A DNA stretch of 35,738 nt from Dehalococcoidia bacterium. Lineage in GTDB: Bacteria; Chloroflexota; Dehalococcoidia; Tepidiformales; Tepidiformaceae. Position numbers and translations under genes: made by a program. The DNA is taken from contig VXLW01000043.1 in the NCBI GenBank assembly GCA_009841435.1, positions 1 to 35,738 on the forward strand, given 5' to 3'. The notes under the pieces were generated by a model that was not told the origin of the DNA, made no database searches, and worked only from the letters and a program-made list of their open reading frames with translations. Below are positions 500 to 35,738 of the stretch, in pieces; the stretch's first letter is position 1, and each line of letters opens with the position of its first letter.

Positions 500-535
500 T
501 CCGGCCCGGGTCGATGAGCGGGCCCCGGAGTGCGA

Positions 536-15852: not shown

Positions 15853-15899
15853 CGTCACCTCCCCGAACGGTCTTTCCGGGCGTTCGAATCACCCGCAGT

Positions 15900-15984: not shown

Positions 15985-16746
15985 ATGGACATCAATGGAC
16001 TGAGCGCGATCGTGACGGGCGGTGGTTCGGGACTGGGCGAGGCGACGGCGCGTGAGCTGAACGCGCACGGTGCGAAGGTCGCGATTCTCGACCTGGGGAG
16101 CTCGAACGGCGCGGAGGTGGCGGCGAGCCTCGGCGGGCTCTTCACCGAGGCCGACGTGACCAGCGACGAGCAGGTGACAAAGGCGGTCGCCGACGCGGCA
16201 GCCGCGCACGGCGGGGTGCACATCCTCATCAACTGTGCGGGAATCGCGACGGCGGAGCGCACCGTGGGGAGGGAAGGTCCGGCGGACCTGGCGCTGTTCA
16301 CACGGACGGTGAACATCAACCTGATCGGAACGTTCAACGCGATCCGGGTGGCGGCGACGGAGATGGTCAAGAACGACCCCACCGAGGACGGCGAGCGGGG
16401 CGTGATCATCAACACGGCCTCGGTGGCGGCGTTCGAGGGGCAGATCGGCCAGGCGGCCTACTCAGCCTCGAAGGGGGGCGTGGTGGGCATGACCCTTCCG
16501 ATCGCGCGGGATCTGGCGCGCAACGGCGTGCGCAACAACACGATCGCGCCGGGCCTCTTCCTGACGCCGATGCTCCTGGGTCTGCCGGACGAAGCGCGCG
16601 AAGCGCTGGGCAACATCACGCCCTTCCCAACGCGCCTGGGGAAGCCGGAGGAGTATGCACAGCTCGCCTGCTCGATCATCGAGAACCCGATGATCAACGG
16701 GGAGACGATCCGGTTGGACGGGGCGCTGCGGCTGGCGCCCCGGTAG
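15985..16746 (+). CDS. SDR dehydrogenase, 3-hydroxyacyl-CoA dehydrogenase type 2-like
   Basis: Short-chain dehydrogenase of about 253 residues. Cofactor motif TGGGSGLG (11-18), an Asp at 36 (AILDL) that favours NAD over NADP, NCAG (83-86), and the catalytic set Ser 146, Tyr 159, Lys 163 (INTASVAAFEG, AAYSASK). The text DVTSDEQV, INTASVAAFEGQIGQAAYSASK-like order and IAPGLFLTPML closely follow the HSD17B10/type 2 hydroxyacyl-CoA dehydrogenase group, so oxidation of a 3-hydroxyacyl-CoA to a ketoacyl-CoA is likely. GGGGAG lies 7 bases before ATG 15985. It is divergent from the carboxyltransferase and ends 3 bases before the convergent Ddn-like gene. Confidence 0.92.
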   Translation: MDINGLSAIVTGGGSGLGEATARELNAHGAKVAILDLGSSNGAEVAASLGGLFTEADVTSDEQVTKAVADAAAAHGGVHILINCAGIATAERTVGREGPADLALFTRTVNINLIGTFNAIRVAATEMVKNDPTEDGERGVIINTASVAAFEGQIGQAAYSASKGGVVGMTLPIARDLARNGVRNNTIAPGLFLTPMLLGLPDEAREALGNITPFPTRLGKPEEYAQLACSIIENPMINGETIRLDGALRLAPR

Positions 16747-16749
16747 GGC

Positions 16750-17202
16750 TCACCGCCTCCGGAGGCGGACGACGGGGATCTGGCGCGGGTTGGCTCGCTC
16801 CTGGTACTCGGTGTAGGGCGGGTAGGCGGCGGCTGCGATCGCCCAGAGACGGTCGCGCTCCTCGCCCTCGACGACCTCGGCGCTGACGGGGATGCGGCGG
16901 GTGTTCACGCGCAGCCAGGCCTGCGGGTTGGCGACGAGGTTGGGGAACCACGAGGGATGTGCGGGCGCACCGCCCTTCGAGCCGATGAGCACGAAGTCCC
17001 GATTGTCGCGGAAGAAGAAGAGGGGCACGGAGCGGAGGTCGCCGCTCGTGCGGCCAATAGTCGTGAGCATGGCCGTAGGGACGTAGGGCACGCCGCTCTG
17101 GCGGCTGATGTGTGCGCTCACGACGGACCAGCCGAGGAAGCGCACAAGGAAGCTCTCGACGGGTCGCAGGATGTTGAGACGCGTGAGGATGTCGAAGAGC
17201 AC
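16750..17202 (-). CDS. Ddn-like deazaflavin (F420)-dependent nitroreductase-family protein
   Basis: About 150 residues, the usual size of the Ddn/DUF385 family of split-beta-barrel proteins known from mycobacteria. The family core is clear: TTIGRTSGDLRSVPLFFF, VLIGSKGGAPAHPSWFPNLV, NPQAWLRVN, and a C-terminal WAIAAAAYPPYTEYQ. Members bind F420H2 and reduce quinones, nitroimidazoles or enones; the natural substrate here is unknown. GTG 17202 follows GGGAGG by 7 bases. It sits downstream of the crotonase and aldolase genes on the same strand, but a strong hairpin separates it from them. Confidence 0.88.
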   Translation of the reverse strand: MLFDILTRLNILRPVESFLVRFLGWSVVSAHISRQSGVPYVPTAMLTTIGRTSGDLRSVPLFFFRDNRDFVLIGSKGGAPAHPSWFPNLVANPQAWLRVNTRRIPVSAEVVEGEERDRLWAIAAAAYPPYTEYQERANPRQIPVVRLRRR

Positions 17203-17273: not shown

Positions 17274-18140
17274 TCAGTTGGCGGCGGAGGCTTCCTTGCG
17301 AGCGCCACCACCGGGCCTCGGGGCCGCGCCCTCGCCCTGGTAGATGCCAGCGCCGCTGACCTCGCGCCAGTGCGTGTGCGCGAGCGTGTGCATGATGAAC
17401 ACGGCCTGCTGGGCGGTCCAGAGACCCTGCGCGTCCTGCGTCTGGTTGACCGCTTCCTTCGTGATCTTCAGGCCGAAGGACGGCTTCTCCGCGATCTTGC
17501 GCGCGAGATTCTCGACGTACTCGCTGAGCTCGTCGCGCGGGACGACCTCGTTCACCATGCCCGCCTCGTAGGCACGCTGGGCGCTCACCCAGTCGCCCGT
17601 GTAGAGCATCTGCCGGGCGAGGCGGTGGCCGAACTCCCACGGATGAGCGAAATACTCGACACCGGGGATGCCCCAGGCCACGACGAGGTCGCGGAACTCG
17701 GCATCGTCGGAGGCGATGATGATGTCGCAGACCCAGGCAAGCATGAGGCCGCCGGCGATGGTCTTGCCCTGCACCTCGGCGATCATCGGCTTGGGGAGGT
17801 TGCGCCAGCGGCGGCACATCTGGAGGTAGATCTCCTCCTCCTTGGCCATCGCGCCCTCGGCGCCTTCCAGGTCGAAGTTGGCCCACGTGCCGACGGGGCG
17901 GACGTCGTTGAAGCCGAGTCCGGTGCCGCCGCGCATGTCGTGGCCGGAGTTGAAGTGGGGGCCCTCGCCGCTGAGGATGATGACCTTCACCTGGTCGTCC
18001 TGGTTGGCGTAGTCGAAGGCGTCGTTCAGGTCGCGGGTGAGCCGCAGGTCCTGGGCGTTGCGCGCCTCAGGGCGGTTCATGCGGACGCGCACGATCTCGG
18101 GCGTCAGGTTCTCGTAGAGGACGGTCTGGTACTCAGGCAT
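17274..18140 (-). CDS. Crotonase-fold protein lacking both hydratase glutamates
   Basis: About 288 residues, enoyl-CoA hydratase/isomerase family. CoA-binding and oxyanion-hole text is intact: VRVRMNRPEARNAQ at the N-terminus, FNSGHDMRGG (64-72) and VQGKTIAGGLMLAWVCD (123-139). However, ungapped alignment on the Cys-Asp of WVCD to rat enoyl-CoA hydratase puts Met 133 at the Glu144 position and Val 153 at Glu164, so simple hydration of enoyl-CoA is unlikely; another crotonase-type reaction is expected. The C-terminus has a glycine-rich tail. ATG 18140 follows GGAG by 6 bases. It lies between the HpcH-type aldolase and the Ddn-like gene on the minus strand. Confidence 0.86.
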   Translation of the reverse strand: MPEYQTVLYENLTPEIVRVRMNRPEARNAQDLRLTRDLNDAFDYANQDDQVKVIILSGEGPHFNSGHDMRGGTGLGFNDVRPVGTWANFDLEGAEGAMAKEEEIYLQMCRRWRNLPKPMIAEVQGKTIAGGLMLAWVCDIIIASDDAEFRDLVVAWGIPGVEYFAHPWEFGHRLARQMLYTGDWVSAQRAYEAGMVNEVVPRDELSEYVENLARKIAEKPSFGLKITKEAVNQTQDAQGLWTAQQAVFIMHTLAHTHWREVSGAGIYQGEGAAPRPGGGARKEASAAN

Positions 18141-18210: not shown

Positions 18211-19038
18211 TCAGATCGTCTCCTCCGACTCGCCGACGTCGGTTGCGTCGCCGCCGCCGACCTCCTCGCCGGCTGCGCGGATAGCGCCAAATTCTTCGCG
18301 GAAGGCGTTGTGCACGGCGCGCGTCTCGGTGCAGTGCAGCACGAAGCGGGCGCCTTCGCGCAGCCACTTCTGCGAGAGGTCGACGGTCTGGTGGTGGATG
18401 AGGACGGGGACGTTGCGGGCCTGGCAGGTGGCGATGATGGTGCGCAACGCGGCCTCGTAGTCGGGGTGGTCGTACTGGTCGGGGACGCCGAGGGAGATGC
18501 TGAGGTCGTTGGGACCGACGAAGATGGCGTCGACGCCTTCGATCGCGACGATGTCATCGAGGGCCTCCATCGCGGGCACGCTCTCGATGCCGACGATGCA
18601 GACGCTGTTGCGGTTGCGCCGCTCGAGGTACTCGCGGGAGGCGTCGCTGGGGAACTCGCCCTGCTCGACGACGCGCCGGACCAGCTCGCCCTTGAGGGGC
18701 CGCCACTTGGTCGCGCCCACCACCTCGCGGACCTCGCCGGGGGTCTCGCAGTAGGGGGCGAGGATGCCCTGCGCGCCCGCGTCGAGCGCCATGGTGATGT
18801 AGTGGGAGCTGGGGATGGGGACGCGGACGATGGGGACGACGTCCACGCTCGTGAGGCCCGAGAGGAGGTCGGCGATTTCGCTGCGGCCGCGGGGGGCGTG
18901 CTCGCTATCGATGATGACGTAGTCGAGGCCGAGGCCGGCGATGGTCGTGGCCCAGCGGGGGTTGCGGGCGGCGGAGAGCATCGTCCCGTAGACGATGCCT
19001 CCCGCGCGTGTCTTCGCCTTCAAATCTGCACCGTTCAT
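18211..19038 (-). CDS. HpcH/HpaI family aldolase
   Basis: About 275 residues, class II metal-dependent aldolase of the HpcH/HpaI (2-keto-3-deoxyacid) family. Active-site residues are all in place: His 47 in IDSEHAPRG, Arg 72 in IVRVP, Glu 152 in VGIESVPAMEAL and Asp 178 in FVGPNDLSISLG, the last two being metal ligands in HpaI. GAQGILAPYCETP and the WRPLKGE loop also match. Typical reaction: reversible cleavage of a 4-hydroxy-2-ketoacid to pyruvate and an aldehyde; some relatives act on CoA thioesters. ATG 19038 with GGAGG 5 bases upstream is preferred to 19095. Divergent from the kinase genes. Confidence 0.88.
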   Translation of the reverse strand: MNGADLKAKTRAGGIVYGTMLSAARNPRWATTIAGLGLDYVIIDSEHAPRGRSEIADLLSGLTSVDVVPIVRVPIPSSHYITMALDAGAQGILAPYCETPGEVREVVGATKWRPLKGELVRRVVEQGEFPSDASREYLERRNRNSVCIVGIESVPAMEALDDIVAIEGVDAIFVGPNDLSISLGVPDQYDHPDYEAALRTIIATCQARNVPVLIHHQTVDLSQKWLREGARFVLHCTETRAVHNAFREEFGAIRAAGEEVGGGDATDVGESEETI

Positions 19039-19134: not shown

Positions 19135-20232
19135 ATGTCGAACCTGCCCATTCCGCTGGCCTACGAGGACTTCACGCCCGACTGGGCGACCGACGCCCTG
19201 CGCTCCAGTGGGACGCTTGAGGACGAGCGCGTCACCGCGGTCGAGACGTCGCCGGTAGGCGAAGGCTTCGGCTTCCTCGGTTCGCTCGCGCGGCTATCCC
19301 TCGCGTATGACCGGCCGCGTCCGGGCGCGCCGGCGACGGTTGTGGCGAAGTTCCCCACACCGGTCGAGATGAACCTGGCGCTCGCGCTCCAGTACCAGGT
19401 GTACGAGCGCGAGGCGCGCTTCTTCAACGAGATCAAGAGCAGCATCAGCGCCATGCCCACGCCGGAGGCCTACTACGTCGACATCAAGGAGTCGGGCCAG
19501 GGCGTGATCCTGCTCGAGGACCTTGACGGGAGGGGCCAGGTTGGCGACCAGCTTGCCGGCGCCTCCCTGAAAGAGGCCGAGCAGCTCATGACGCAGATCG
19601 CCGACCTGCACGCCACCTGGTGGGACCGGGCGGAGGAGGAGACGATCTCCTGGGTGCCCGCCTTCGACGGCCCCGTCTGGGCCATGACGGCACAGACCTT
19701 GCCTTCCCTCTGGCCGACCTATCAGCAGGACTCCAGCCACATGCTCCTGCCCGGGATGGCCGACATCATCGAGCGCACCTGGGAGGGGCTGCCGTGGCTG
19801 GGCCAGCAGCTGAGCCGCGGCCCGATGACGCTCGTGCACGGCGACTACCGGCTCGACAACATGTGCTTCCCCAACCAGGAGGGCGAGCCCATCATCGTCT
19901 TCGACTGGCAGCTCATGTCGCGTGGCCGGGGGCCATACGACGTCGCATATTTCATGAGCCAGAGCGTCGATGTGGAGCTGCGGCGCGAGCACGAGCGATC
20001 GCTGGTGAAGCGCTACCACGACGGCCTCGTGGCCGGGGGCGTGCGCGACTACTCCTTCGACGACTGCTTCGAGGACTACCGTCTGGCGACGCTCTGGTGC
20101 GTGATGTATCCCGTGGCGATGGGCGGGGGCATGGCGGCCAACGAGCGCGCCCTGGAGATCGCGGCGGAAATCTCGAAGCGCTCCTTCAATACGATCCTGG
20201 ACCTCGATTCGGTCTCGGTCCTGCCCAGCTGA
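19135..20232 (+). CDS. Small-molecule phosphotransferase (CHK/ecdysteroid-kinase-like), copy 1
   Basis: Protein-kinase-fold phosphotransferase of about 365 residues. The catalytic loop is VHGDYRLDNMCF (H235 onward) and the metal-binding Asp follows in IVFDWQLMSRGRGPYDVAYF. The region GVILLEDLDGRG corresponds to the hinge and LIAKF/VVAKF to the nucleotide-binding Lys. This pattern belongs to the EcKL/CHK-like group, which phosphorylates alcohol groups of small molecules; the substrate is unknown. The gene is the first of a tandem pair with the next gene, sharing most of its length. GGAGG-type SD lies 4-8 bases before ATG 19135. It is divergent from the aldolase gene with 96 bases between starts. 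Confidence 0.86.
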   Translation: MSNLPIPLAYEDFTPDWATDALRSSGTLEDERVTAVETSPVGEGFGFLGSLARLSLAYDRPRPGAPATVVAKFPTPVEMNLALALQYQVYEREARFFNEIKSSISAMPTPEAYYVDIKESGQGVILLEDLDGRGQVGDQLAGASLKEAEQLMTQIADLHATWWDRAEEETISWVPAFDGPVWAMTAQTLPSLWPTYQQDSSHMLLPGMADIIERTWEGLPWLGQQLSRGPMTLVHGDYRLDNMCFPNQEGEPIIVFDWQLMSRGRGPYDVAYFMSQSVDVELRREHERSLVKRYHDGLVAGGVRDYSFDDCFEDYRLATLWCVMYPVAMGGGMAANERALEIAAEISKRSFNTILDLDSVSVLPS

Positions 20233-20283: not shown

Positions 20284-21387
20284 ATGAGTGACCTGCCTAT
20301 TCCCCTGTCGGCCGAGGACTTCACCCCGGACTGGCTGACCGCCGCCCTGCGTTCGAACGGAACAATCGAGGACGAGCGGGTCGTCTCCGTGGAGGCGATC
20401 CCCATGGGCGAGGAGTTCGGCTTCCTCGGGTCCCTCCTGCGGCTGTCGCTCACCTACGACCGGCCCCGGGCGGCCGCGCCCGCGACGCTGATCGCGAAGT
20501 TCGCGGCGGGCGCGGAGATGAACCGCGCGTTCGCCCGCCAGTACGGGATTTATGTCACCGAGGCGCGCTTCTTCCAGGACCTGCAGCCCTCGCTGACGGC
20601 GATGCCCACCGTTCAGGCCGTCTACACCGACTATGACTCCGCCGCCGGCGATGGCGTCACCATCCTCGAGGACCTGCAAGGGAAGCTCCGCATCGGCGAC
20701 CAGATGGTGTCGCCCCCGCACACCGAGGCCCTCAAGATCGTCGAGCAGTCGGCAGGACTGCACGCGACCTGGTGGGGCAAGGCGGACGCGGACGATCTGG
20801 CCTGGATTCCGAAGACGGACGGCCCGGTGTGGGCGATGGCGCCGGCGACGCTGCAGGGCTTCTGGCCGGTGTACCAGCAGAACTTCGGGCACATGCTCAC
20901 GCCCGACCTGATCTCGGCGGTGGAGCGGACGTGGGCGCAAATGGACTGGGTCTTCAAGCGCTTCGCGACGCCCCCGATCACCGTCATTCATGGGGACTAC
21001 CGGCTCGACAACATGTTCTTCCCCGACCGCGAGGGCGACCCCATCACCGTCATCGACTTCCAGCTGATGGCGCGCGGGCGCGGTCCGTACGACATCGCCT
21101 ACTTCGCCAGCCAGAGCCTGGACGTGGAGCAGCGCCGGGCGACCGAGCGCGAGCTCGTGCGCCACTACCACGACACGCTCGTGGCAGCGGGCGTACGGGA
21201 CTATTCGTTCGACGACTGCTTCGAGGACTACCGGCTGGCGACGCTCTGGTGCGCCGTCTACCCGATCGGGATGGGCGGGGGGCTTGCCGGGGACAGCCAG
21301 CGGCACCTCGACCTGGCGACGGAGGTCTCGCGCCGCTGCTTCACGGCGATCGTGGACCTGGACGCCGTCTCGACCCTGCCGAGCTGA
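20284..21387 (+). CDS. Small-molecule phosphotransferase (CHK/ecdysteroid-kinase-like), copy 2
   Basis: About 367 residues, clear tandem paralogue of the preceding kinase gene: the starts MSNLPIPLAYEDFTPDW and MSDLPIPLSAEDFTPDW, the segment GVRDYSFDDCFEDYRLATLW, and the ends LDLDSVSVLPS and VDLDAVSTLPS match almost throughout. Catalytic loop IHGDYRLDNMFF (H236) and IDFQLMARGRGPYD are intact, so both copies should be active. Differences lie mainly in the middle (residues 85-215), the part that usually sets substrate choice in this fold. CGGAG lies 8 bases before ATG 20284; 51 bases separate it from copy 1, so cotranscription is likely. It ends one base before the convergent DinB-like gene. Confidence 0.87.
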   Translation: MSDLPIPLSAEDFTPDWLTAALRSNGTIEDERVVSVEAIPMGEEFGFLGSLLRLSLTYDRPRAAAPATLIAKFAAGAEMNRAFARQYGIYVTEARFFQDLQPSLTAMPTVQAVYTDYDSAAGDGVTILEDLQGKLRIGDQMVSPPHTEALKIVEQSAGLHATWWGKADADDLAWIPKTDGPVWAMAPATLQGFWPVYQQNFGHMLTPDLISAVERTWAQMDWVFKRFATPPITVIHGDYRLDNMFFPDREGDPITVIDFQLMARGRGPYDIAYFASQSLDVEQRRATERELVRHYHDTLVAAGVRDYSFDDCFEDYRLATLWCAVYPIGMGGGLAGDSQRHLDLATEVSRRCFTAIVDLDAVSTLPS

Positions 21388-21987: not shown

Positions 21988-23202
21988 GTGCCTCATCCCG
22001 ACCGAATCGCCATCGTGGGGGCTTCCCTGGGCGGCCTTCGCACCGCGCAGGCGTTGCGCGGACGGGGCAAGTTCGAGGGGACGATCACCCTCATCGGCGC
22101 CGAACCCCACTACCCCTACGACCGACCGCCCCTCTCGAAGCAGGTGCTGGCAGGCGAGTGGGGTCCGGAGCGCACCCTCCTCGACCCGCCCGACAAGGTC
22201 GACGAGCTCGGGCTGGACCTGCGGCTCGGCGCGCGGGCCGAGGGACTCGACCTGGAGGCGCGCGACGTCGCACTGAGCGACGGCGAGCGCGTCGGCTTCG
22301 ACTCGCTCATCATCGCGACCGGGGCGACCCCGCGGACGCTCCCGAACACGCCGGACCTCGCCGGGATCTACACGCTCCGCACCATCGACGACTCGATGCG
22401 AATCCGCGCCGAGCTGGCCCAGGGGCCGCGGGTGGCGGTGGTGGGAGCGGGGTTCATCGGGGCGGAGGTGGCGGCCGTGGCGTGCAGCGCTGGGCTTGAG
22501 GTGACGCTCATCGAGGCGCTGCCGGCACCGCTCGCGAACGCCGTGGGCACGGATGTGGGCGAGGCATGCGCGGCGATGCACCGCAGCCACGGCGTGGATG
22601 TGCGCTGCGACACCCTCGTGGCCGGTTTCGAGGGCAGCGAGCGCGTCGAGCGGGTGGTGCTCGCCGACGGCTCGAGAGTCGAGGCGGACCTGGTCGTCGT
22701 CGGCATCGGGGTCGCGCCGGAGACGCGCTGGCTCGAGGGCTCGGGACTGGAGCTCCGCGACGGCGTCGTCTGCGACGCCACCTGCGCGGCGGCGCCAGGC
22801 ATCTACGCGGTCGGGGACGTGTGCCGCTGGTACAACCCGATCTTCGAGGAGGAGATGCGGGTCGAACACTGGACGAACGTGATCCACCAGAGCCGCCACG
22901 TCGCACGCAACCTTCTGGCGGAGCCGGGCGAGGCGCGGCCATTCGCATCGGTGCCGTACGTCTGGTCTGACCAGTACGACGCGAGCATCCAGTCGCTTGG
23001 GCACCCCCGGGCGGAGGACGAGGTCGAGGTCCTGCACGGCTCGCTGGAGAGCCTCGAGTTCGTGGCCGGCTACCAGCGAAACGGGATCATCGTGGGCGGC
23101 CTGACATTCAACATGCCCCAGCAGCTCTCCTCGTACCGCCCCCTCATCGAGCAGCGCACCCCCTGGGAGGCCGTGCTCGAGCACGCCCAGGCGATGGGCT
23201 AG
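21988..23202 (+). CDS. FAD-dependent ferredoxin reductase-type oxidoreductase
   Basis: About 404 residues, class I pyridine nucleotide-disulfide-type flavoprotein of the rhodocoxin/putidaredoxin/BphA4 reductase group. FAD-binding fold at the N-terminus (IAIVGASLGGLRTAQALRG), TGATPRTLP at the junction, NAD-binding fold (VAVVGAGFIGAEVAAVACSA), the FAD closing motif GIYAVGDVCRW, and a C-terminal reductase domain with VPYVWSDQYDASIQ. There are no redox-active Cys pairs, as expected. It passes electrons from NAD(P)H to a ferredoxin that feeds an oxygenase, but neither partner is in this window. The start is uncertain: GTG 21988 fits the family length; the frame is open to GTG 21907. Confidence 0.88.
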   Translation: MPHPDRIAIVGASLGGLRTAQALRGRGKFEGTITLIGAEPHYPYDRPPLSKQVLAGEWGPERTLLDPPDKVDELGLDLRLGARAEGLDLEARDVALSDGERVGFDSLIIATGATPRTLPNTPDLAGIYTLRTIDDSMRIRAELAQGPRVAVVGAGFIGAEVAAVACSAGLEVTLIEALPAPLANAVGTDVGEACAAMHRSHGVDVRCDTLVAGFEGSERVERVVLADGSRVEADLVVVGIGVAPETRWLEGSGLELRDGVVCDATCAAAPGIYAVGDVCRWYNPIFEEEMRVEHWTNVIHQSRHVARNLLAEPGEARPFASVPYVWSDQYDASIQSLGHPRAEDEVEVLHGSLESLEFVAGYQRNGIIVGGLTFNMPQQLSSYRPLIEQRTPWEAVLEHAQAMG

Positions 23203-23254: not shown

Positions 23255-24250
23255 ATGGACCTCGCAGAGCTCTCCGAACGCCTCGTGCCGTTCTGTCGTG
23301 AGCACCTGGGCGACCCCGCGGCCACGGTCTCGAACGTCGAAACGATGCCGGGGCACGCGGGCTTCTCCTTCGGCTTCACGGCCACCGCCAACGGCGAGTC
23401 CAGCTCCTACGTGTTGCGTGTGCCCCCGCCGAACGTGCGGCGGGTTGGCACCGCCGACGTGATCCGGCAGGCGCGCGTCGTGCATGCCCTTCGGGATACC
23501 GATGTGCCGGTCGTGGACGTGATCTGGTCGAGCGAGGACGAGCGCTGGTTCGGCTCGCCCTACTTCATCGTGAACAAGCTCCAGGGAGACGTGCTGCGGA
23601 GCGACTGGGGCTGGGATATGCCGGCGGAGGAGATGCGCCCGGTCGCTTTCCAGGCGATGCGCGCGCTCGCTTCGCTGCACCTGCTCGACTGGCGGGAGTA
23701 CGTTCCCGACGACGGACCGCCGCTCGAGCTGGAGCCGGACGTGACGCGCTGGGACCGCTTCTACGAGCGCTCCGGTGACATGGACCTCGTGGCGCTCGCT
23801 CCGGACGTGCGGGAGAAGCTGCTCGAACGGCTGCCGGAGGAACCCCGAATCGGCATGTTCCATGGAGACTTCCAGTGGTCGAACGTGTTCTACAGCTTCG
23901 ACGGCAAGCTGCAGGCGGTCATCGACTGGGAGCTGTGGGGCGTGGGGGCGACGCTGAACGACCTCGGCTGGGTGATCACGTTCGCCGACGCGGAGGCGTG
24001 GAAGCATGGCCTCCGGCACGCGCTGCCTCCACCCGACGACCTTATCGCCGAGTACGTCGACACCTACGGAAGCGACCCGGGCGACATCGCCTGGTACCGG
24101 GCGCTGGCGGCCTACAAGTTCGGGATCATCAGCGGCTTCAACCTGTACCTGCACCGTACCGGGAAGCGCCCGGACCCCTCGTGGGAGGACACGGCGCTCT
24201 CGGCGCCTTTCCTCATGCGGCGCGCCCTCGAAGTGCTCGACGGGGGGTAG
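23255..24250 (+). CDS. ACAD10/11-type phosphotransferase (hydroxyacyl kinase-like)
   Basis: About 331 residues, aminoglycoside-phosphotransferase fold. Catalytic loop FHGDFQWSNVFY (H203) and metal site AVIDWELWGVGATLNDLGW match the kinase domain fused to ACAD10/ACAD11 in animals and the stand-alone bacterial LvaA group, which phosphorylates 4-hydroxyacyl-CoA esters. The N-terminal lobe reads YVLRVPPP and the hinge YFIVNKLQG. Because acyl-CoA genes follow directly, phosphorylation of a hydroxyl on an acyl or acyl-CoA is the best guess; antibiotic resistance is unlikely. GGGGAGG lies 6 bases before ATG 23255. First gene of a six-gene operon; 5 bases to the next gene. A possible -10, TATCAT, is at 23224-23229. 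Confidence 0.85.
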   Translation: MDLAELSERLVPFCREHLGDPAATVSNVETMPGHAGFSFGFTATANGESSSYVLRVPPPNVRRVGTADVIRQARVVHALRDTDVPVVDVIWSSEDERWFGSPYFIVNKLQGDVLRSDWGWDMPAEEMRPVAFQAMRALASLHLLDWREYVPDDGPPLELEPDVTRWDRFYERSGDMDLVALAPDVREKLLERLPEEPRIGMFHGDFQWSNVFYSFDGKLQAVIDWELWGVGATLNDLGWVITFADAEAWKHGLRHALPPPDDLIAEYVDTYGSDPGDIAWYRALAAYKFGIISGFNLYLHRTGKRPDPSWEDTALSAPFLMRRALEVLDGG

Positions 24251-24255
24251 GCGCC

Positions 24256-25515
24256 ATGCCGGGCCCTCTCGACGGCATCCGCGTGCTCGACTTCACCCGT
24301 CACCTGGCGGGGGCGGGCTCAACGCGCATCCTCGCGACACTGGGGGCGGAGATCCTGCGCATCGAGTGGCCGCACCCACCGGCGCTCGACTTCCTGCGGC
24401 TCTCGGGGCCGCACGCCGACGGCAGGCCGGGGATGAACCGGGGCGGGTTCTTCGCGCAGGTGAACGTCGGCAAGAAGAGCGTCGCCATCGACATGTCGAC
24501 CGAAGCGGGGAAGGACATCGCGCGGGAGCTGATTCCGCACTGTGACGTGCTGGCGGAGAGCTTTTCGCCCGGCGTGATGAAGCGCTGGGGGCTGGACTAC
24601 GAGGCAGTGCGGGCAATCCGGCCCGACATCATCTACCTGTCGGCGTCCGGGTTCGGGCAGACGGGTCCGTACGCTGGCTACCGCTCGGTGGGGCCGACAG
24701 CGCAGGCGTACAGCGGATTGACCGCGACCTCGGGATTGCCCGACCGCGAGCCCGCCGGCTGGGGCTTCTCCTACATGGACCACATGGGCGCGGTGATGAA
24801 CGCAGCCGCCATCCTGATGGGCCTCGAACGACGGCGAGCGACGGGCGAGGGCGAGTTCTTCGACGCGGGACAGAGCCAGCACGGCTGCGCGCTTCTTGGA
24901 CCGATGCTGCTCGACGTCTCCCTGAACGGCGCGCAGGTACGCCCGAAAGGCAACCGCGACCTGTACGGCAACTTCTGCCCGAACAGCGCATACCGCTGCC
25001 GGGGCGAGGACTCCTGGCTCGCGATCTCGGTGCGGGAGCCGAGCGAGTGGGCGGCGCTGTGCAAGGTCATCGACGCCGACGACCTCGCCGCGCGACCGGA
25101 CCTCGTGACGCTTGCGGGACGGCTCGCGCACGAGGACGAGATCGACGCGCGCGTCGAGGCGTGGACGAGGTCGCGGGACGCCCGGGAGACGATGGTGGTT
25201 CTGCAGGAAGCGGGCGTGCCGGCGGGGGTCGCGCAGACGGTCGAGGACAAGGTGCACCGTGACCCACAGCTCGCCTTCCGCGGGCTCTACACGAAACTCG
25301 ACGACCCGGTGCTCGGGGAGCGCCGGTACGAGGACATCCCCGTGACCATGAGCGGCTTCGACGTAGGCGTCAGCAGCCCATCGCCGTGGCTCGGGGCGGA
25401 CACGCGCGATGTCCTGCGCGACCTGCTCGGATACCCGGAGGAGCGCCTCGAACAGCTGAAGGCCGACGCCATCATCGACGACGCGATCACGCTGGAGGAG
25501 GCGGAGGCGGTATGA
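24256..25515 (+). CDS. CaiB/BaiF CoA-transferase with catalytic Asp (subunit A)
   Basis: Family III CoA-transferase of about 419 residues. N-terminal motif DGIRVLDFTRHLAGAGSTR, the region KKSVAIDMSTEAGKDIAREL, then SASGFGQTGPY and the catalytic segment SYMDHMGAVMNAAA with Asp 175 at the acyl-anhydride position; it ends with the swapped C-terminal part RDVLRDLLGYPEE. It should move CoA between acids in the cytoplasm; donor and acceptor are unknown. Its TGA stop overlaps the next gene's ATG as ATGA, so it is translated together with a second, Asp-lacking family III protein. The two probably form one enzyme. Confidence 0.92.
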   Translation: MPGPLDGIRVLDFTRHLAGAGSTRILATLGAEILRIEWPHPPALDFLRLSGPHADGRPGMNRGGFFAQVNVGKKSVAIDMSTEAGKDIARELIPHCDVLAESFSPGVMKRWGLDYEAVRAIRPDIIYLSASGFGQTGPYAGYRSVGPTAQAYSGLTATSGLPDREPAGWGFSYMDHMGAVMNAAAILMGLERRRATGEGEFFDAGQSQHGCALLGPMLLDVSLNGAQVRPKGNRDLYGNFCPNSAYRCRGEDSWLAISVREPSEWAALCKVIDADDLAARPDLVTLAGRLAHEDEIDARVEAWTRSRDARETMVVLQEAGVPAGVAQTVEDKVHRDPQLAFRGLYTKLDDPVLGERRYEDIPVTMSGFDVGVSSPSPWLGADTRDVLRDLLGYPEERLEQLKADAIIDDAITLEEAEAV

Positions 25516-26690
25516 GCCGGACGCTCGAGCACCTGACAGTCGTGGAGCTGGCGGGGCCGCGCACGGAGTGGTGCGGAAAACTGTTCTCTCAGGCGGGGGC
25601 GCGGGTGGTGCTGGTGGAGCCTCCGGGCGGGGCGGAAACGCGCCGCTACGGGCCGTGGTTCCAGGGTCGCCGGGACGGGGAGTCGAGCCTGCACTTCTGG
25701 CACTACAACACCGACAAGGAGAGCGCCGTCCTCGACCTGACGGCCGGGGACGGTCGCGAGGCGTTCCTGCGGCTGCTCGGGGAGGCGGACGTGCTGCTCG
25801 ACGGAAGCGAGGCGGGGGGCCTGGAGGGGCTGGGGCTGACGCGCGAGGCCATCGGGGAAGCGAACGACCGGCTCGTACACGTCGCCCTGACGCCGTTCGG
25901 GCAGGAGGGGCCGATGGCCTCGTGGCTGGGGAGCGACCTCGTTCACCAGGCGCTGGGCGGCCAGATGATGATGAACGGTTACGACGACATGCCCGAGAGC
26001 CCGCCCGTCAACGGGCAGGGGAACCAGGCAGGGCATATGGCCGGGAGCTGGGCCTTCATCGCGGCGTTGGCGGCGCTGCAGGCGGGCAAGGGCTCGTTCA
26101 TCGACCTGTCCGTGCACGACGCCAGCGCGGGGATGACGGAGAACGCCCTGCCCCAGTTCGACTACACGGGGAAGGTGGTGACGCGACGGACGGGTCGCCA
26201 CGCGAGCGTCGCGCCTACGCCGGCGTGGCAGCACCGCGCCGCCGACGGGCGCTACATCAACGCGCAGCTCGTGAACGTGAGTCCGCGAGCCTGGGAGGGG
26301 CTGGTCTCGTGGCTCGACGAGCACGGCATGGCCGAGGACCTGACCGACCCGAAATACTTCGTGCCCGAGATCTTCCGCGAGGAGGCGGACCACATCTCGG
26401 ACGTGATCGGCAAGTTCGTGGCGACGAAGACGGCAGATGAGATCTTCCACGGGGCGCAGGCGCGGGCGCTTATCTTCAGCGCCATCCTCAACCCGGAGGA
26501 CCTGCTGGATGACCCCCACCTTGCGGCGCGCGACTTCTGGATCGAGCTCGACCACGGTGAACCGGAGGGGATGCTGCGTTACGCGGGCAGCGCCTTCGTC
26601 GCGCAGAACTCCGAAGTGCGGCCGCGGCGGCGGGCGCCCCGGCTCGACGAGCACGGCGACGCCGTCCGGGGCGGAGGGGCGGACGGATGA
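25512..26690 (+). CDS. CaiB/BaiF-type protein lacking catalytic Asp (subunit B)
   Basis: About 392 residues, family III CoA-transferase fold: LEHLTVVELAGPRTEWCGKL at the N-terminus, ESAVLDLTAGDGREAFLRLL, LTPFGQEGPMASW and the segment NQAGHMAGSWAFIAALAAL. At the place of the catalytic Asp there is Ala 173 or Gly 174, and no acidic residue lies between 163 and 197, so it is probably a non-catalytic partner. The binding segment GGAETRRYGPWFQG early on is present. It overlaps its neighbours by ATGA on both sides (25512 and 26687). Comparable two-subunit family III enzymes are known in anaerobic toluene degradation (BbsEF), which is the closest known precedent. Confidence 0.87.
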   Translation: MSRTLEHLTVVELAGPRTEWCGKLFSQAGARVVLVEPPGGAETRRYGPWFQGRRDGESSLHFWHYNTDKESAVLDLTAGDGREAFLRLLGEADVLLDGSEAGGLEGLGLTREAIGEANDRLVHVALTPFGQEGPMASWLGSDLVHQALGGQMMMNGYDDMPESPPVNGQGNQAGHMAGSWAFIAALAALQAGKGSFIDLSVHDASAGMTENALPQFDYTGKVVTRRTGRHASVAPTPAWQHRAADGRYINAQLVNVSPRAWEGLVSWLDEHGMAEDLTDPKYFVPEIFREEADHISDVIGKFVATKTADEIFHGAQARALIFSAILNPEDLLDDPHLAARDFWIELDHGEPEGMLRYAGSAFVAQNSEVRPRRRAPRLDEHGDAVRGGGADG

Positions 26691-27121
26691 GTGGCGGGGA
26701 TGCAGCCGTCACGAAGCCCGTACCGGTCCCGGATGAGTTGACGGCGCCGTTCTGGGAGGCGGCCAACCGGGGCGTGCTCGCAATCCAGCACTGCACAGCC
26801 TGCGAGCGCTACGTCCATCCGCCGGAGGCCGTCTGCCCCGACTGCCAGGCCTCGGAATTGACGTTTCGCGAAGTTAGCGGTCGGGCGCGCCTCTACACGC
26901 ACACGATCGTGCGGGACAACGTCACTCAGGGGTTCGCAGAGGACGAGCCGTACGTGATCGGCATCATCGAGCTGGTCGAGCAGGAGCGGCTGGTGCTGGT
27001 CGCCAACGTCGTGGGCGTGGCGCCCGAGGACGTCCGCATCGGGATGCCGTTGCGGGTCACCTTCGAGCGGCTGACGGATGAGATCGCGCTGCCCCAGTTC
27101 ACGCCAGACGAGGGGGACTGA
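26687..27121 (+). CDS. DUF35 zinc-ribbon/OB-fold acyl-CoA-associated protein
   Basis: About 144 residues. A rubredoxin-like zinc ribbon, CTAC (Cys 36, 39) and CPDC (Cys 50, 53), is followed by an OB-fold beta-barrel (VSGRARLYTHTIVRDN through VIGIIELVEQERLVLVANVVG). Proteins of this type bind acyl-CoA and work with thiolase-fold partners; the best studied are the DUF35 domain of ChsH2 with the aldolase Ltp2 in steroid side-chain degradation, and acetone/acetoacetyl systems. The gene directly downstream encodes such a partner, with no base between the stop and its GTG start. It starts within the previous gene's stop (ATGA). Confidence 0.92.
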   Translation: MSGGDAAVTKPVPVPDELTAPFWEAANRGVLAIQHCTACERYVHPPEAVCPDCQASELTFREVSGRARLYTHTIVRDNVTQGFAEDEPYVIGIIELVEQERLVLVANVVGVAPEDVRIGMPLRVTFERLTDEIALPQFTPDEGD

Positions 27122-28312
27122 GTGGCCAGCGAACTCTCGGGCCGGGCGGCGATCGTGGGCCTCGGGTACTCGAAGCTCGAGCGTCGCTCGCCGCGGCCGC
27201 TGGCCCACTTCGCCCGGGAGGCGGCGGAGGCGGCCGTCGCCGACGCCGGCCTCACCATCGACGACATCGACGGGCTCGGCACGATTCCCAACATCGCCGC
27301 CTACGGCAATACCGGCGACCTCGAAGGCATCGACATCGTGACGGTCCCCAACATGGTGCGGATGCTGGGGCGGGAACACGGCATCCGCTGGCACGTGCAG
27401 ACGCCGGGGCTCTGCCCAGACACGATCATGGCGGCAGCGGCGGCGGTCGCCTCGGGAGCGTGCACCTACGCGCTCGTGTGGCGGGCCGTAAACGTGCCGA
27501 AGGGCCGGTACAGCGACTTCTCGATGGCCCAGGCGCGCGGCGAGCACCAGTTCCGGGCGCCCTACGGCTTCACGATGCCCGCGGCGTGGCAGTCGGTCGC
27601 GCTTAGGAAGTACATGCACGACCACGGGTCGACGCGGGAGGACATGGCGGCGTTCGTCGTGCAGAACCGCGAGAACACGCAGCTCAACCCGAAGGCGTAC
27701 TGGTGTGGCACGCCCCTCACCGTAGAGGACTACCTGGAGGCGCCGATGGTGGCCGACCCGTTCTGCCTGTACGACTGCGACATCCCCGTGGACGGGTGTG
27801 TTGCCGTCCTGCTCGCGAGCGCCGAGCGCGCCCGCGACCTCCGTCAGCCGCCCGCCTACATCACCGGATACGCGCAGACGACCTGGCCGACGCGGGGCGG
27901 TTTCACCGATTCGGAAAACATGTGGGAGGGCGGAGCGGCGCTGGGGGAGAAGCTGTGGGCCTCGGCGGGGATGGGGCCGGACGACATCGACGTGGCGATG
28001 CTCTACGACGGCTTCAGCATCTTCCTCTACGTCTGGCTGGAGGCGCTCGGGTTCGTAGGTCGCGGGGAGGCGGCAAGCTACATCGCCTCCGGGGCGACGG
28101 CACTCGACGGCGAGCTTCCGCTGAACACGTCGGGCTGCTCGCTGGGCGAGGGCCGTCTGCACGGGATGGCGCAGATCAGCGAGGCAGTGCTGCAGGTTAC
28201 CGGGCGTGCGGGAGCGCGCCAGATTGAGGGCGCGGCCCACACCGTCGCCACGGTGGGCGCGGGGACGCTCGCCAGCGGCGGACTCATCTTCAGCAGGGAG
28301 GCGCGAGCATGA
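27122..28312 (+). CDS. Thiolase-fold protein, Ltp2-like (lipid-transfer/aldolase type)
   Basis: About 396 residues, SCP2-thiolase superfamily. AAIVGLGYSKLERRSPRPL at the N-terminus, DAGLTIDDIDGLGT, the region QTPGLCPDTIMAAAAAVASG, DVAMLYDGFSIFL and the C-terminal LNTSGCSLGEGRLHGMAQI. In normal thiolases a nucleophilic Cys precedes the A-x-x-x-A helix; counting back from the helix-ending SG puts Pro 95 there, and Cys 98 is three residues late. Together with the DUF35 partner this suggests a retro-aldolase or condensing role like Ltp2, not simple thiolysis. GTG 27122 immediately follows the DUF35 stop; the gene ends in an ATGA overlap with the oxidoreductase gene. Confidence 0.88.
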   Translation: MASELSGRAAIVGLGYSKLERRSPRPLAHFAREAAEAAVADAGLTIDDIDGLGTIPNIAAYGNTGDLEGIDIVTVPNMVRMLGREHGIRWHVQTPGLCPDTIMAAAAAVASGACTYALVWRAVNVPKGRYSDFSMAQARGEHQFRAPYGFTMPAAWQSVALRKYMHDHGSTREDMAAFVVQNRENTQLNPKAYWCGTPLTVEDYLEAPMVADPFCLYDCDIPVDGCVAVLLASAERARDLRQPPAYITGYAQTTWPTRGGFTDSENMWEGGAALGEKLWASAGMGPDDIDVAMLYDGFSIFLYVWLEALGFVGRGEAASYIASGATALDGELPLNTSGCSLGEGRLHGMAQISEAVLQVTGRAGARQIEGAAHTVATVGAGTLASGGLIFSREARA

Positions 28313-29151
28313 AGTTCGGCACCGTCATCCACGGCATCCGGGGCGAGGCGCTTGTCGCGGCGGCGCAGAAGGCGGAGGAGCTGGGGTTCGAGTCACTCTG
28401 GCGCCCGGACCACCTCATCTTCCCGACCGAGATGCCCTCGACGTATCCCTACGCGGAGGACGGGCAGGCGCCCCTCGACCCGCGCTGGCCCTTCATGGAC
28501 GGGCTCACGGTGTTCACCTACATCGCCTCGCACACGACGACGATCCGGTTCGGGACGGCCGTCTTCATCCTGCCCCTGCGCGACCCGGTGTCGACGGCGA
28601 AGACGGTGGCCGATCTCGACTACCTGACGCGTGGGCGGGTCCTCTTCGGCGTGGGCGCGGGCTGGCTGGAGGAGGAGTTCGACATGGTCGGGCTCGACTT
28701 CCACACGCGAGGGGCGCGCATGGACGAGTGCATCGCCGTGCTGCGAGCGCTCTGGACGGAACCCGAGCCGGAGTTCCACGGCAAGCACTACGACCTCGGC
28801 CCGGCGGCGTTCGAGCCGAAGCCGTTCCAGAAACCGCACCCGCCCATCCTCGTGGGGGGCGAGACGCCCGCGGCGCTGCGTCGCGCGGCTCGCCTGGGGG
28901 ACGGCTGGTATGCGCTCCGGCACACACCCGAGAGCGCCCGCGAGCACATCGCGAGGCTGACGGAACTCCGGGAGCAGTACGGCCGCGCCAACCTACCGTT
29001 CGACGTGACCGTGAACGGCTCGCCTTCGATCACGCGGGACGAGGTGGAGGCGCTGGAGGAGGCGGGGGTGAACCGCATCGTCGTGACACTGTGGCGATCG
29101 TCCCGAGACGCCATCCCGGCCCTTGAGGAGTTCGCCGAGCGCTTGCTGTAG
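28309..29151 (+). CDS. LLM-class F420-dependent oxidoreductase
   Basis: About 280 residues, luciferase-like TIM-barrel. Family text: MKFGTVIHGIRGEALVAAA, FESLWRPDHLIFPTEMP, YIASHTTTIRFGTAVFILPL, LDYLTRGRVLFGVGAGWLEEE and PPILVGGETPAALRRAARLGD. The GAGWLEEEF segment and RDP after the inner barrel strand are usual for the F420-linked subgroup. Likely hydride transfer between F420 and an alcohol, ketone or acyl-CoA double bond; the operon context suggests an acyl-CoA intermediate. Last gene of the six-gene operon, overlapping the thiolase gene as ATGA. It is about as similar in layout to the window's other two LLM genes as to distant family members, so not a recent duplicate. Confidence 0.9.
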   Translation: MKFGTVIHGIRGEALVAAAQKAEELGFESLWRPDHLIFPTEMPSTYPYAEDGQAPLDPRWPFMDGLTVFTYIASHTTTIRFGTAVFILPLRDPVSTAKTVADLDYLTRGRVLFGVGAGWLEEEFDMVGLDFHTRGARMDECIAVLRALWTEPEPEFHGKHYDLGPAAFEPKPFQKPHPPILVGGETPAALRRAARLGDGWYALRHTPESAREHIARLTELREQYGRANLPFDVTVNGSPSITRDEVEALEEAGVNRIVVTLWRSSRDAIPALEEFAERLL

Positions 29152-29211: not shown

Positions 29212-30093
29212 ATGAAGATCTTCGACGTTCACATCCACTTCCCGCGCGACTGGGAGAAGCCCGACGCCGACCCGGCGCCCTTGATCGAGCGCCTCGCAGA
29301 GGTTGCGACGGCTGCCGGAATTACGAAGGGCTGCATCCTGACGGGCGGGCGCTTCGGACCGACCTACGAGCGAGGCATCGAGATCCTGCAGGAGTACCCG
29401 GACCTGTTTGTGCCGGTGGCGATGATTGACCCCGAGGTGATCGGCCGGGACGAGGTCAAGGAGCTCCACGCGATGGGGTACCGCGGCCTGAAGCTGATCG
29501 GCGTGGCACGCCGCTACGACGAGCCCGACTACCTGCCCACCTACGCGGCGGCCGAGCGGCTGGGGATGCCGGTCCTGTTCCACCTGGGCGTCATCGGCGG
29601 CGGCATCGACTACTCGATCACGCACCCGCGACGCGACCCGCAGGCGGCAGCGATGTACCGCCGCATGCAGGAGATGCGCGGCCGCTGGCCGATGCGCGAC
29701 GTCTCCGCGGAGCGCATGTCGCCGGTCCACCTGGACACGATCGCGCAGCGCTTCCCCGACCTGCGCATCATCGGCGCGCACCTCGGGAACCAGGGCAACT
29801 ACGAGTACGCGACTTCCATCGCCCGCTGGCGGACGAACGTCTCCCTCGACATGAGCGGCGGTGAGACGATCGAGCGGCACGCGGTCGAGCTGGGGCTAAT
29901 CGGGGGCGAGATCGGCATCGAGAAGCTGGTGTTCGGCTCGGACTGCGGCATGGACGACATCCGCGAGCACATCGACCGCTTCGAGGCCATCTACGACCAG
30001 CTGGGGCTGTCGGAATCGGACCGCGAGCGCCTGTGGTGGCGAAACGCGGCGGAGATCTACGGGTTCGAGGAGCCCACGCTCGCGGAGGAGTAG
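29212..30093 (+). CDS. Amidohydrolase family 2 (ACMSD-like) metal-dependent hydrolase/decarboxylase
   Basis: About 293 residues, TIM-barrel metal enzyme of the amidohydrolase-related group. Metal ligands are visible in order: the H-x-H pair at residues 7 and 9 (FDVHIHF), His in VLFHLGVIGGG, His in IIGAHLGNQGNY and Asp in LVFGSDCGMDD. Family members include ACMSD and 2,3-dihydroxybenzoate or resorcylate decarboxylases and simple hydrolases of cyclic compounds, so either decarboxylation or hydrolysis is possible. It follows the CoA operon by 60 bases with its own extended -10 promoter, so it may be co-used but is not cotranscribed by necessity. A membrane protein gene follows closely. Confidence 0.86.
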   Translation: MKIFDVHIHFPRDWEKPDADPAPLIERLAEVATAAGITKGCILTGGRFGPTYERGIEILQEYPDLFVPVAMIDPEVIGRDEVKELHAMGYRGLKLIGVARRYDEPDYLPTYAAAERLGMPVLFHLGVIGGGIDYSITHPRRDPQAAAMYRRMQEMRGRWPMRDVSAERMSPVHLDTIAQRFPDLRIIGAHLGNQGNYEYATSIARWRTNVSLDMSGGETIERHAVELGLIGGEIGIEKLVFGSDCGMDDIREHIDRFEAIYDQLGLSESDRERLWWRNAAEIYGFEEPTLAEE

Positions 30094-35016: not shown

Positions 35017-35738
35017 CTACAGCCCCAGCGACTCCGCCGTGCTCTCGACGAAGGCGACGACGTCGTCGCGGATGGGGTCGGGATCGTCGGTGGGGAGCAT
35101 GAGGTGGCGGGGCATCGGGGCGAGGCGGTGGACGCCGACCTCGGCGAAGCGCTCGACGGTCTCGCGGTCGAGGCGACCGCGAGGCGTGATCGTGATCTCG
35201 AGGGGTCCGAGGTAGTCGGGGCGCTCAACCTTCTCGGCGGCCTCGTCGAGGGCCCTGATGGCGGCGGCCGCCCCCTCGACATCCATCATGAACCCGTACC
35301 AACCGTCGCCCTGGGTGATGGTGCGCCGGTGAGCGGCGTCGGAGTAGCCGCCGATCACAATGGGGGGATGGGGCTGCTGGACGGGGAGGGGACGGGACTG
35401 GATGCCGGCGAGCGAGGTGAAGCGACCTTCGAAGACCGGCTTCTCCTGCGTCCAGAGCGTGCGGAGGACTTCGATGTGTTCGGACGTGCGGGCGCCGCGC
35501 TCGCGGAAGGGGACGCCGATCGCGTCGAACTCGCCTTCGACCGAACCGACACCCACGCCGAGGATGAGGCGCCCGCCAGAGAGCACATCGATGCCGGCGA
35601 GCTCCTTGGCGAGCACGACGGGGTTGCGCTGGGGCAGGAGCAGGATGCCGCTGGCCAGGCGGACGCGCTCGGTTGCGCCGGCGAGGAAGGCGAGCGTCGC
35701 AACGGTGTCGGCGAGGGGGGTGTCGGGGACGAGGGGGG
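35017..35738 (-). CDS. LLM-class F420-dependent oxidoreductase (5' end outside window)
   Basis: Partial: the frame is open to the window edge and the missing start lies beyond 35738. About 240 residues are visible: LAGATERVRLASGILLLPQR, NPVVLAKELAGIDVLSGGR, LILGVGVGSVEGEFDAIG, PPIVIGGYSDAAHRRTITQG, then the family C-terminus. The text matches the F420-linked luciferase-like group (TIGR03619-type layout), and the GTG at 35616 is internal, since the family sequence continues upstream of it. Substrate unknown. It is the third such gene in the window and is convergent with the LysM nuclease gene. Confidence 0.88.
   Translation of the reverse strand, partial: PLVPDTPLADTVATLAFLAGATERVRLASGILLLPQRNPVVLAKELAGIDVLSGGRLILGVGVGSVEGEFDAIGVPFRERGARTSEHIEVLRTLWTQEKPVFEGRFTSLAGIQSRPLPVQQPHPPIVIGGYSDAAHRRTITQGDGWYGFMMDVEGAAAAIRALDEAAEKVERPDYLGPLEITITPRGRLDRETVERFAEVGVHRLAPMPRHLMLPTDDPDPIRDDVVAFVESTAESLGL

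Follow-up and report, generated by a model that had tools for sequence, protein, structure and literature searches.

Two degradative pathways are among the described systems that come close to the gene set reported here. In anaerobic toluene degradation, a two-subunit class III CoA-transferase, BbsEF, is accompanied by a two-subunit thiolase, BbsAB (PMC10818641), and BbsAB has been counted as a DUF35 complex (PMC12329534). Bile-acid side-chain shortening has been described as a route of a CoA-ligase, the Sal aldolase, the Sad aldehyde dehydrogenase and a second CoA-ligase, and according to the same review thiolysis would spare the ATP-dependent re-activation (PMC8399759). The catalytic residues have been given as Tyr294 and Tyr344 for Ltp2 and as Tyr302 and Cys304 for Sal, and SCP2 thiolases carry an HDCF motif (PMC12329534). 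In the present study, we analysed a stretch of 35,738 nucleotides from a Dehalococcoidia bacterium of the family Tepidiformaceae (contig VXLW01000043.1, hereafter the window), for which a first-pass annotation had claimed a six-gene operon. All six open reading frames (ORFs) lie on the plus strand at the positions claimed, and the gene family assigned to each was borne out by Pfam:

23255-24250, plus strand: APH kinase (Pfam APH)
24256-25515, plus strand: CoTA, class III CoA-transferase, catalytic subunit with Asp175 (Pfam CoA_transf_3, E 1e-100)
25512-26690, plus strand: CoTB, class III CoA-transferase, Asp-less partner subunit (Pfam CoA_transf_3)
26687-27121, plus strand: DUF35/ChsH2-type partner of Ltp, Zn-ribbon and OB-fold (Pfam zf-ChsH2, OB_ChsH2_C)
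27122-28312, plus strand: Ltp, thiolase-fold Ltp2/Sal-like putative retro-aldolase of a YDG..GRxHG subfamily (Pfam Thiolase_C_1)
28309-29151, plus strand: LLM, luciferase-like oxidoreductase, TIGR03619 (Rv2161c) (Pfam Bac_luciferase)

These are genuine, closely coupled genes on which purifying selection acts. The guanine-cytosine content by codon position backs the reading frame of each ORF, dN/dS (the ratio of nonsynonymous to synonymous substitution rates, against three genus relatives) is 0.06-0.28 across the six, and the joints consist, as first annotated, of gaps of 5 and 0 bases and three ATGA overlaps of 4 bases. A search of the plus strand between 21000 and 32000, itself a weak test, turned up no terminator-like site. 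The gene order is identical in six relatives of the genus, one of which (L021) is interrupted by a contig end within Ltp. CoTA/CoTB and CoTB/DUF35 still overlap by ATGA in 6/6 of these relatives and Ltp/LLM in 5/5; between the kinase and CoTA, the distance is 5 bases in three of the six and 21-23 bases in the other three, a less certain value that rests on an extrapolated position without a start codon. As the flanking genes (ExoIII, MFS) are also kept, synteny within the genus carries little weight on its own.

The distribution of the genes in the family was profiled gene by gene (Ltp, CoTB, LLM, kinase and amidohydrolase) in a sample of 38 genomes, own genome included. The genome carrying the window is 2.7 Mb in size and 90% complete, and JAPPAK010000008.1 (isolate IRC1_bin_31) encodes Ltp at 98% identity. 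A CoTB orthologue was found in 9/38 genomes at 61-100% identity; the other matches listed reach at most 41%, and the line between 61% and 41% was set after the gap had been seen. LLM (E up to 1e-70) occurs in the same nine genomes, and Ltp (E up to 1e-80; 8/38) in eight of them, the exception being G008, which is 69% complete and in 340 contigs. The nine genomes span three genera and therefore represent few independent events. The genus members G028 and G035 gave no match to Ltp, the CoTB orthologue or LLM. In G011, which belongs to another genus, DUF35, Ltp, CoTA and CoTB are adjacent in an order rearranged relative to the window, and the LLM gene is encoded on the opposite strand at a distance of about 3.5 kb from Ltp; CoTA and CoTB of G011 are 64% and 62% identical to those of the window, and the identities drop to 43% and 35% with the next-best transferases in the window genome. 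Since the kinase separates from the other five genes outside the genus and in G035, the unit delimited by these comparisons is 24256-29151, a predicted accessory five-gene catabolic cassette, and the kinase is an older neighbour. The six genes thus keep their order and ATGA overlaps in the six genus relatives, whereas G035 and G011 break the set and the six genes are not one unit outside the genus. A clean empty site was not found; in G035, the kinase and the amidohydrolase are about 47 kb apart.

It is suggested that the cassette loads an acid with CoA, cleaves the chain by a retro-aldol reaction and oxidises or reduces the carbonyl piece released, and we give this reading a probability of about 0.45. 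CoTA and CoTB would form a BbsEF-type heteromeric class III CoA-transferase, with the Asp on CoTA and with CoTB as the Asp-less structural or substrate-binding partner, and would load an organic acid with CoA at no direct ATP cost. The DUF35 protein and Ltp would act as a ChsH2-Ltp2/Sal-like complex for the retro-aldol split of a beta-hydroxyacyl-CoA, which would release an aldehyde or ketone and leave a short acyl-CoA. LLM would oxidise or reduce this carbonyl fragment, probably with F420, and an acid product, if formed, could be re-loaded with CoA by the same transferase. Heteromer formation, the direction of the reaction, the order of the steps and the cofactor of LLM are parts of the model that we infer from sequence.

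The best solved relative of CoTA is the BbsF chain 9fn0_B (E 4e-59), and that of CoTB is the BbsE chain 9fn0_A (E 1e-53, the next at 7e-32). An active/inactive transferase pair had been annotated at first pass and agrees with the alignment, in which CoTA has Asp175 and CoTB has no Asp at the catalytic position; this Asp is missing in all eight CoTB-type sequences (window CoTB and seven aligned relatives). CoTB is not decaying, because its dN/dS (0.09-0.13) is about as low as that of CoTA (0.09-0.12). When 39 of the 47 class III transferase domains of the genome were aligned (41 rows, two of them repeats), the Asp was present in 27/39 and absent in 12/39. Ten of the 12 Asp-less domains have an Asp-bearing partner, in tandem or fused, and the other two (C1, C22) begin within 150 bases of a contig end. 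Six of the eight tandem pairs read in the genome have one Asp-less member, with C3 and C72 having Asp in both, and in all four fusions read the Asp is missing from the N half and present in the C half. Pairs or fusions, counted as adjacent same-strand domains among the matches listed, number at least 10 in G000, at least 16 in G033, at least 11 in G035 and at least 10 in G022. The nearness of CoTA and CoTB to different subunits of 9fn0, together with the recurring Asp/no-Asp split, argues for the heteromeric part of the model.

For the DUF35 protein, the closest solved structures are 9myr_B and 6ok1_B. The best sequence match of Ltp is Ltp2 (6ok1_A, E 6e-56), with the solved benzoylsuccinyl-CoA thiolase at E 4e-25, and for its AlphaFold2 model (predicted local distance difference test score, pLDDT, 85) the best Foldseek fold match is also 6ok1. 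The earlier reading of a DUF35/Ltp2-like aldolase is supported at the level of family, sequence and predicted fold. Tyr295 of Ltp falls at the position of Tyr294, the catalytic base of TcLtp2, and the Tyr of the YD motif is found in 98/100 aligned sequences; the aldolase part of the model is drawn from this kept residue and from the nearness to Ltp2. As judged from the alignment, the YDG..GRxHG signature of Ltp differs from Ltp2, Sal and thiolases. YDG[FY] is present in 94/99 and GR[LIM]HG in 93/99 other aligned sequences (not dereplicated), and, with the window counted, Arg345 is found in 94/100 and His347 in 95/100. None of the eight paralogues of the own genome has both motifs together; two of them are Sal-like with YDCY, and C117b has YDGF with GRSRV. 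SCP2-type thiolases have a conserved nucleophilic Cys and an HDCF-type motif; Ltp has YDGF, and the cysteine closest to its nucleophile region, Cys98, is unconserved, being Ile, Val or Thr in 10/12 aligned family members. The subfamily is patchy, with matches at E 1e-75 in 17/393 genomes and 8/226 genera of the class; a YDCY-type paralogue, searched at E 1e-90, matched in 70/294 genomes. Among the best 80 of 179 loci, it occurs in Chloroflexota, Nocardia, Rhodococcus, Sphingobium, Binatia, Rokubacteria, Acetobacteraceae and others. When plasmids were searched with Ltp, 26 records matched; the 25 listed share 33-39% identity. Stops were flagged inside some matches and are presumably terminal stops taken into the alignment.

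The neighbourhoods of Ltp relatives were compared in 81 loci, namely the best 80 of the 179 named loci and the window. Grouping at 75% Ltp identity gave 17 lineages, for 15 of which at least one member has 3 kb of flanking sequence on either side. As controls, we used 28 DUF35/Ltp paralogues, 20 YDCY-type from the class and eight of the own genome, all from one class; the p values are uncorrected and vary with clustering and distance. The DUF35 gene lies within 300 bases of Ltp in 78/81 loci. An LLM gene was found within 3 kb of Ltp in 5/15 lineages against 0/28 controls (p 0.003), within 3 kb in 4/13 lineages beyond the family (p 0.007), and within 6 kb in 5/13 lineages against 2/28 controls. 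For a tandem or fused transferase at 75% clustering, the counts are 7/15 lineages against 4/28 controls within 3 kb (p 0.03) and 7/13 against 6/28 within 6 kb (p 0.07); at 85% clustering they are 7/19 (3 kb, p 0.09) and 7/15 (6 kb, p 0.16). By best BLAST match in the window genome, transferases of the type of the window pair (window pair, C117, C31, C14) are present in four of the seven lineages and in one of the four controls, and the more distant fusions of Amycolatopsis, Sphingomonas and Sphingobium match other types as well. That a transferase pair is tied to Ltp everywhere is not supported, as 4/28 controls have a pair or fusion within 3 kb and 3/7 lineages have another type. In four Sphingobium loci of conserved gene order (L095, L096, L099, L120), the Ltp gene has within 9 kb an LLM gene, a PQQ-type dehydrogenase and a double CoA-transferase fusion of another type.

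Other features noted in the window are as follows:

530-2965, plus strand: bifunctional FO synthase CofGH of F420 biosynthesis (NCBIfam equivalog, 1142.9 bits, cut-off 1018)
8512-9369, minus strand: LLM protein
11793-14255, minus strand: fused double class III CoA-transferase, Asp-less N half and Asp-bearing C half (Pfam, two stretches)
14260-15858: carboxyltransferase, beside the fused CoA-transferase
15985-16746: SDR (short-chain dehydrogenase/reductase)
16750-17202, minus strand: deazaflavin-dependent nitroreductase-family gene
17274-18140, strand opposite to the cassette: enoyl-CoA hydratase
18211-19023: HpcH/HpaI-type lyase
19135-20232, plus strand: ecdysteroid-kinase-like (EcKL) protein
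20284-21387, plus strand: EcKL protein, tandem paralogue of the preceding
21988-23202, plus strand: ferredoxin/NAD-reductase-like FAD enzyme (Pfam)
29212-30093, plus strand: amidohydrolase_2 protein, a family-wide gene (Pfam)
35017-35736, minus strand: LLM protein

The two genes flanking the six were considered as members of the cassette and rejected. The amidohydrolase is present in 31/38 family genomes, and in G035, which lacks the cassette, the FAD reductase is still found beside the kinase; in L021 the FAD reductase and the kinase are 671 bases apart. The EcKL paralogues are 59% identical to each other, both are retained in the genus relatives examined, and one homologue is present in the G035 stretch. 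The two further LLM proteins of the window are 33-40% identical to that at 28309-29151.

LLM of the cassette scores 258.2 bits against TIGR03619, a family named "F420-dependent", for which the curated cut-off is 166.9. In addition to CofGH, CofD was found above its cut-off elsewhere in the genome. F420 is probably used by LLM, as judged from its family membership; the genes for F420 synthesis do not prove such use. A new F420-linked catabolic route, as suggested at first pass, is a possibility that these genes do not establish.

Several points weigh against the proposed reading. Ltp has Arg345 in place of the Ltp2 acid Tyr344 and Gly297 in place of Sal Cys304. Because these acids are replaced, the assignment of aldolase activity is an extrapolation across unlike active sites, and Ltp is classed as a relative of Ltp2 and Sal, not as either of them. 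The cassette contains no dehydrogenase or hydratase to produce the beta-hydroxyacyl-CoA. Beyond the family, the association with a transferase is weak (5/13 lineages against 4/28 controls, p 0.11), and, over all lineages, in three of the seven with a pair or fusion within 3 kb (L101/L111, L117/L118, L109) the transferases are of another type. The genome has 51 first-look LLM candidates, and LLM proteins can be FMN monooxygenases.

A rival reading has a different order of events, in which LLM, as a type II Baeyer-Villiger or alkanal-type FMN monooxygenase, would oxygenate a ring ketone before CoA loading and cleavage. We consider this possible but unlikely. Ring-ketone oxygenation by an FMNO has been proposed for SAR202 (PMC5395668), and expansions of LLM (FMNO) and CaiB/BaiF families have been described together in SAR202 and in SAR202 symbionts of sponges; the score of LLM above the cut-off of an F420-named family and the presence of CofGH and CofD speak on the other side, although neither fixes the cofactor. 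A bbs-like beta-oxidation, in which CoTA/CoTB would load a succinate-type acid and DUF35/Ltp would be a thiolase on a 3-oxoacyl-CoA, as with BbsEF and BbsAB, would suit the closest solved transferase relatives, BbsE and BbsF, and BbsA is the sole NCBIfam match of the DUF35 protein at E 0.001, at 25 bits, far below its cut-off of 250. It is made quite improbable by Ltp, which is nearer to Ltp2 than to the solved thiolase (E 6e-56 against E 4e-25), has YDG instead of the HDCF of SCP2 thiolases (PMC12329534) and has Cys98 replaced in 10/12 family members, and by the absence of BbsG/H/CD-like genes from the cassette. No BbsG dehydrogenase, BbsH hydratase or BbsCD dehydrogenase was found among the genes at 21.9-30.1 kb, and the nearest enoyl-CoA hydratase and SDR found are 6-8 kb upstream, with the hydratase on the opposite strand. 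The cassette might also run forward and build a metabolite by an aldol or Claisen-type condensation, since synthetic thiolase-fold/DUF35 complexes such as PhlABC are among the fold matches of Ltp. This is very unlikely in our view: the closest solved relatives include two degradative aldolases, and the upstream genes (enoyl-CoA hydratase, HpcH/HpaI lyase and carboxyltransferase) are acyl-CoA catabolic in type.

The first-pass annotation had further placed the kinase in the pathway, where it would phosphorylate a stubborn hydroxyl of the substrate ahead of cleavage. The kinase has intact catalytic motifs (HGDFQWSN and DWE), its solved relatives include ACAD11 and 3dxp, only 5 bases separate it from CoTA in the window, and it adjoins CoTA in the six genus relatives. 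Its distribution is nevertheless independent of the cassette, and this claim was not upheld. The kinase is present in 30/38 family genomes, 22 of these 30 being outside the genus. G035, in which Ltp, the CoTB orthologue and LLM are absent, keeps a run of enoyl-CoA hydratase, HpcH/HpaI, one EcKL-type kinase, DinB, FAD reductase and APH kinase, the last 76% identical to the window kinase, and in the 19.9 kb stretch read there the five cassette genes are not downstream of it. Conversely, the kinase gave no match at E 1e-50 in the cassette genome G011, which is only 78% complete, and it lies within 3 kb of Ltp in 1/15 lineages. Outside the genus, the neighbourhoods of 19 of the 23 kinase matches were examined, the four omitted being those of the genus of G022. 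An acyl-CoA dehydrogenase is just upstream of the kinase on the same strand in 12/19 loci; L235 has only a partial one, about 0.8 kb from the kinase at a contig edge, and six of the 19 lack a dehydrogenase in that position (in L249 one lies on the opposite strand). Taken together, a role of the kinase in the cassette pathway is very improbable. A second, partial kinase match (G034:C1:256061-256555, L236; 165 residues, 88% identical) was seen in a genus member.

The cassette consists of known enzyme kinds in a new combination, with a cleavage enzyme whose aligned active-site signature is different. No description of a pathway with this gene set was found among the matches listed in openly licensed PMC papers; the earlier statement that no pathway with the exact set was known agrees with this for the full set, and part of the set is known from BbsEF with BbsAB (PMC10818641). 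SAR202-type Chloroflexota have been credited with the oxidation of recalcitrant dissolved organic matter from their large CaiB/BaiF and LLM families, and papers on SAR202 and on sponge symbionts report expanded CaiB/BaiF and FMNO/LLM families (PMC5395668, PMC6306507). The relevance is by likeness of gene families, the window organism being likened and not assigned to SAR202: its genome has 47 class III transferase domains besides the LLM candidates counted above. The excerpts of these papers differ in that they give counts and possible roles, some likened to DddD, with no active/inactive pairs and no DUF35/Ltp cassette. Since many transferases are Asp-bearing/Asp-less pairs or fusions, the independent enzymes may be fewer than gene counts suggest. 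The cassette links one CaiB/BaiF-type and one LLM member, co-inherited, to a defined putative cleavage enzyme, and it offers a small testable gene set rather than a genome-wide expansion. A more far-reaching version of the proposed reading, which we hold to be rather unlikely, is an undescribed self-contained chain-shortening loop, with a retro-aldol step at a further kind of active site (Tyr295/Arg345) in a DUF35-dependent thiolase-fold enzyme, F420-coupled oxidation of the carbonyl and ATP-free re-activation by the transferase pair. If true, the multiplied transferase pairs would be an interchangeable substrate-entry device for recalcitrant organic matter.

Compared with the known systems, the neighbouring kinase recalls LvaA/LvaC and ACAD10/11, in which a kinase is combined with an acyl-CoA dehydrogenase (PMC12440821), as in the 12/19 loci outside the genus. 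The difference is that the kinase here lies outside the cassette and that the pairing is absent in the window itself, where the gene just upstream is the FAD reductase. CoTA and CoTB are each nearest to a different chain of one solved heteromer, BbsEF (PDB 9fn0), and in the alignment CoTB has the NQA stretch of BbsE at the position of the catalytic Asp, so that BbsE itself is read as lacking this Asp. The bbs pathway likewise includes a two-subunit thiolase-fold enzyme, BbsAB, whereas the thiolase-fold partner in the cassette is Ltp2-like, not BbsB-like, and an LLM gene is added. With the steroid aldolase Ltp2-ChsH2 (PDB 6ok1), Ltp shares the best match by sequence and predicted fold, an adjoining DUF35 gene and the Tyr of the catalytic base; it differs in YDGF against YDHF and in Arg345 against the acid Tyr344 of TcLtp2, and no steroid-ring gene is among the window genes named by Pfam, for which part of the window genes was scanned. 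From Sal-Shy with Sad (PDB 9myr), the cassette differs in YDGF against YDCY, in a DUF35 protein without a MaoC hydratase domain, in a transferase for the ligase and in LLM for the NAD aldehyde dehydrogenase. If the model is right, the two have in common the aldolytic release of an acyl-CoA, a free carbonyl, its oxidation and a new CoA thioester (PMC8399759). By analogy, we believe that the cassette may mirror the bile-acid route, with a CoA-transferase for the ligase and LLM for Sad, and because a CoA-transferase stands in place of the ligase, the ATP cost of re-activation would be avoided.

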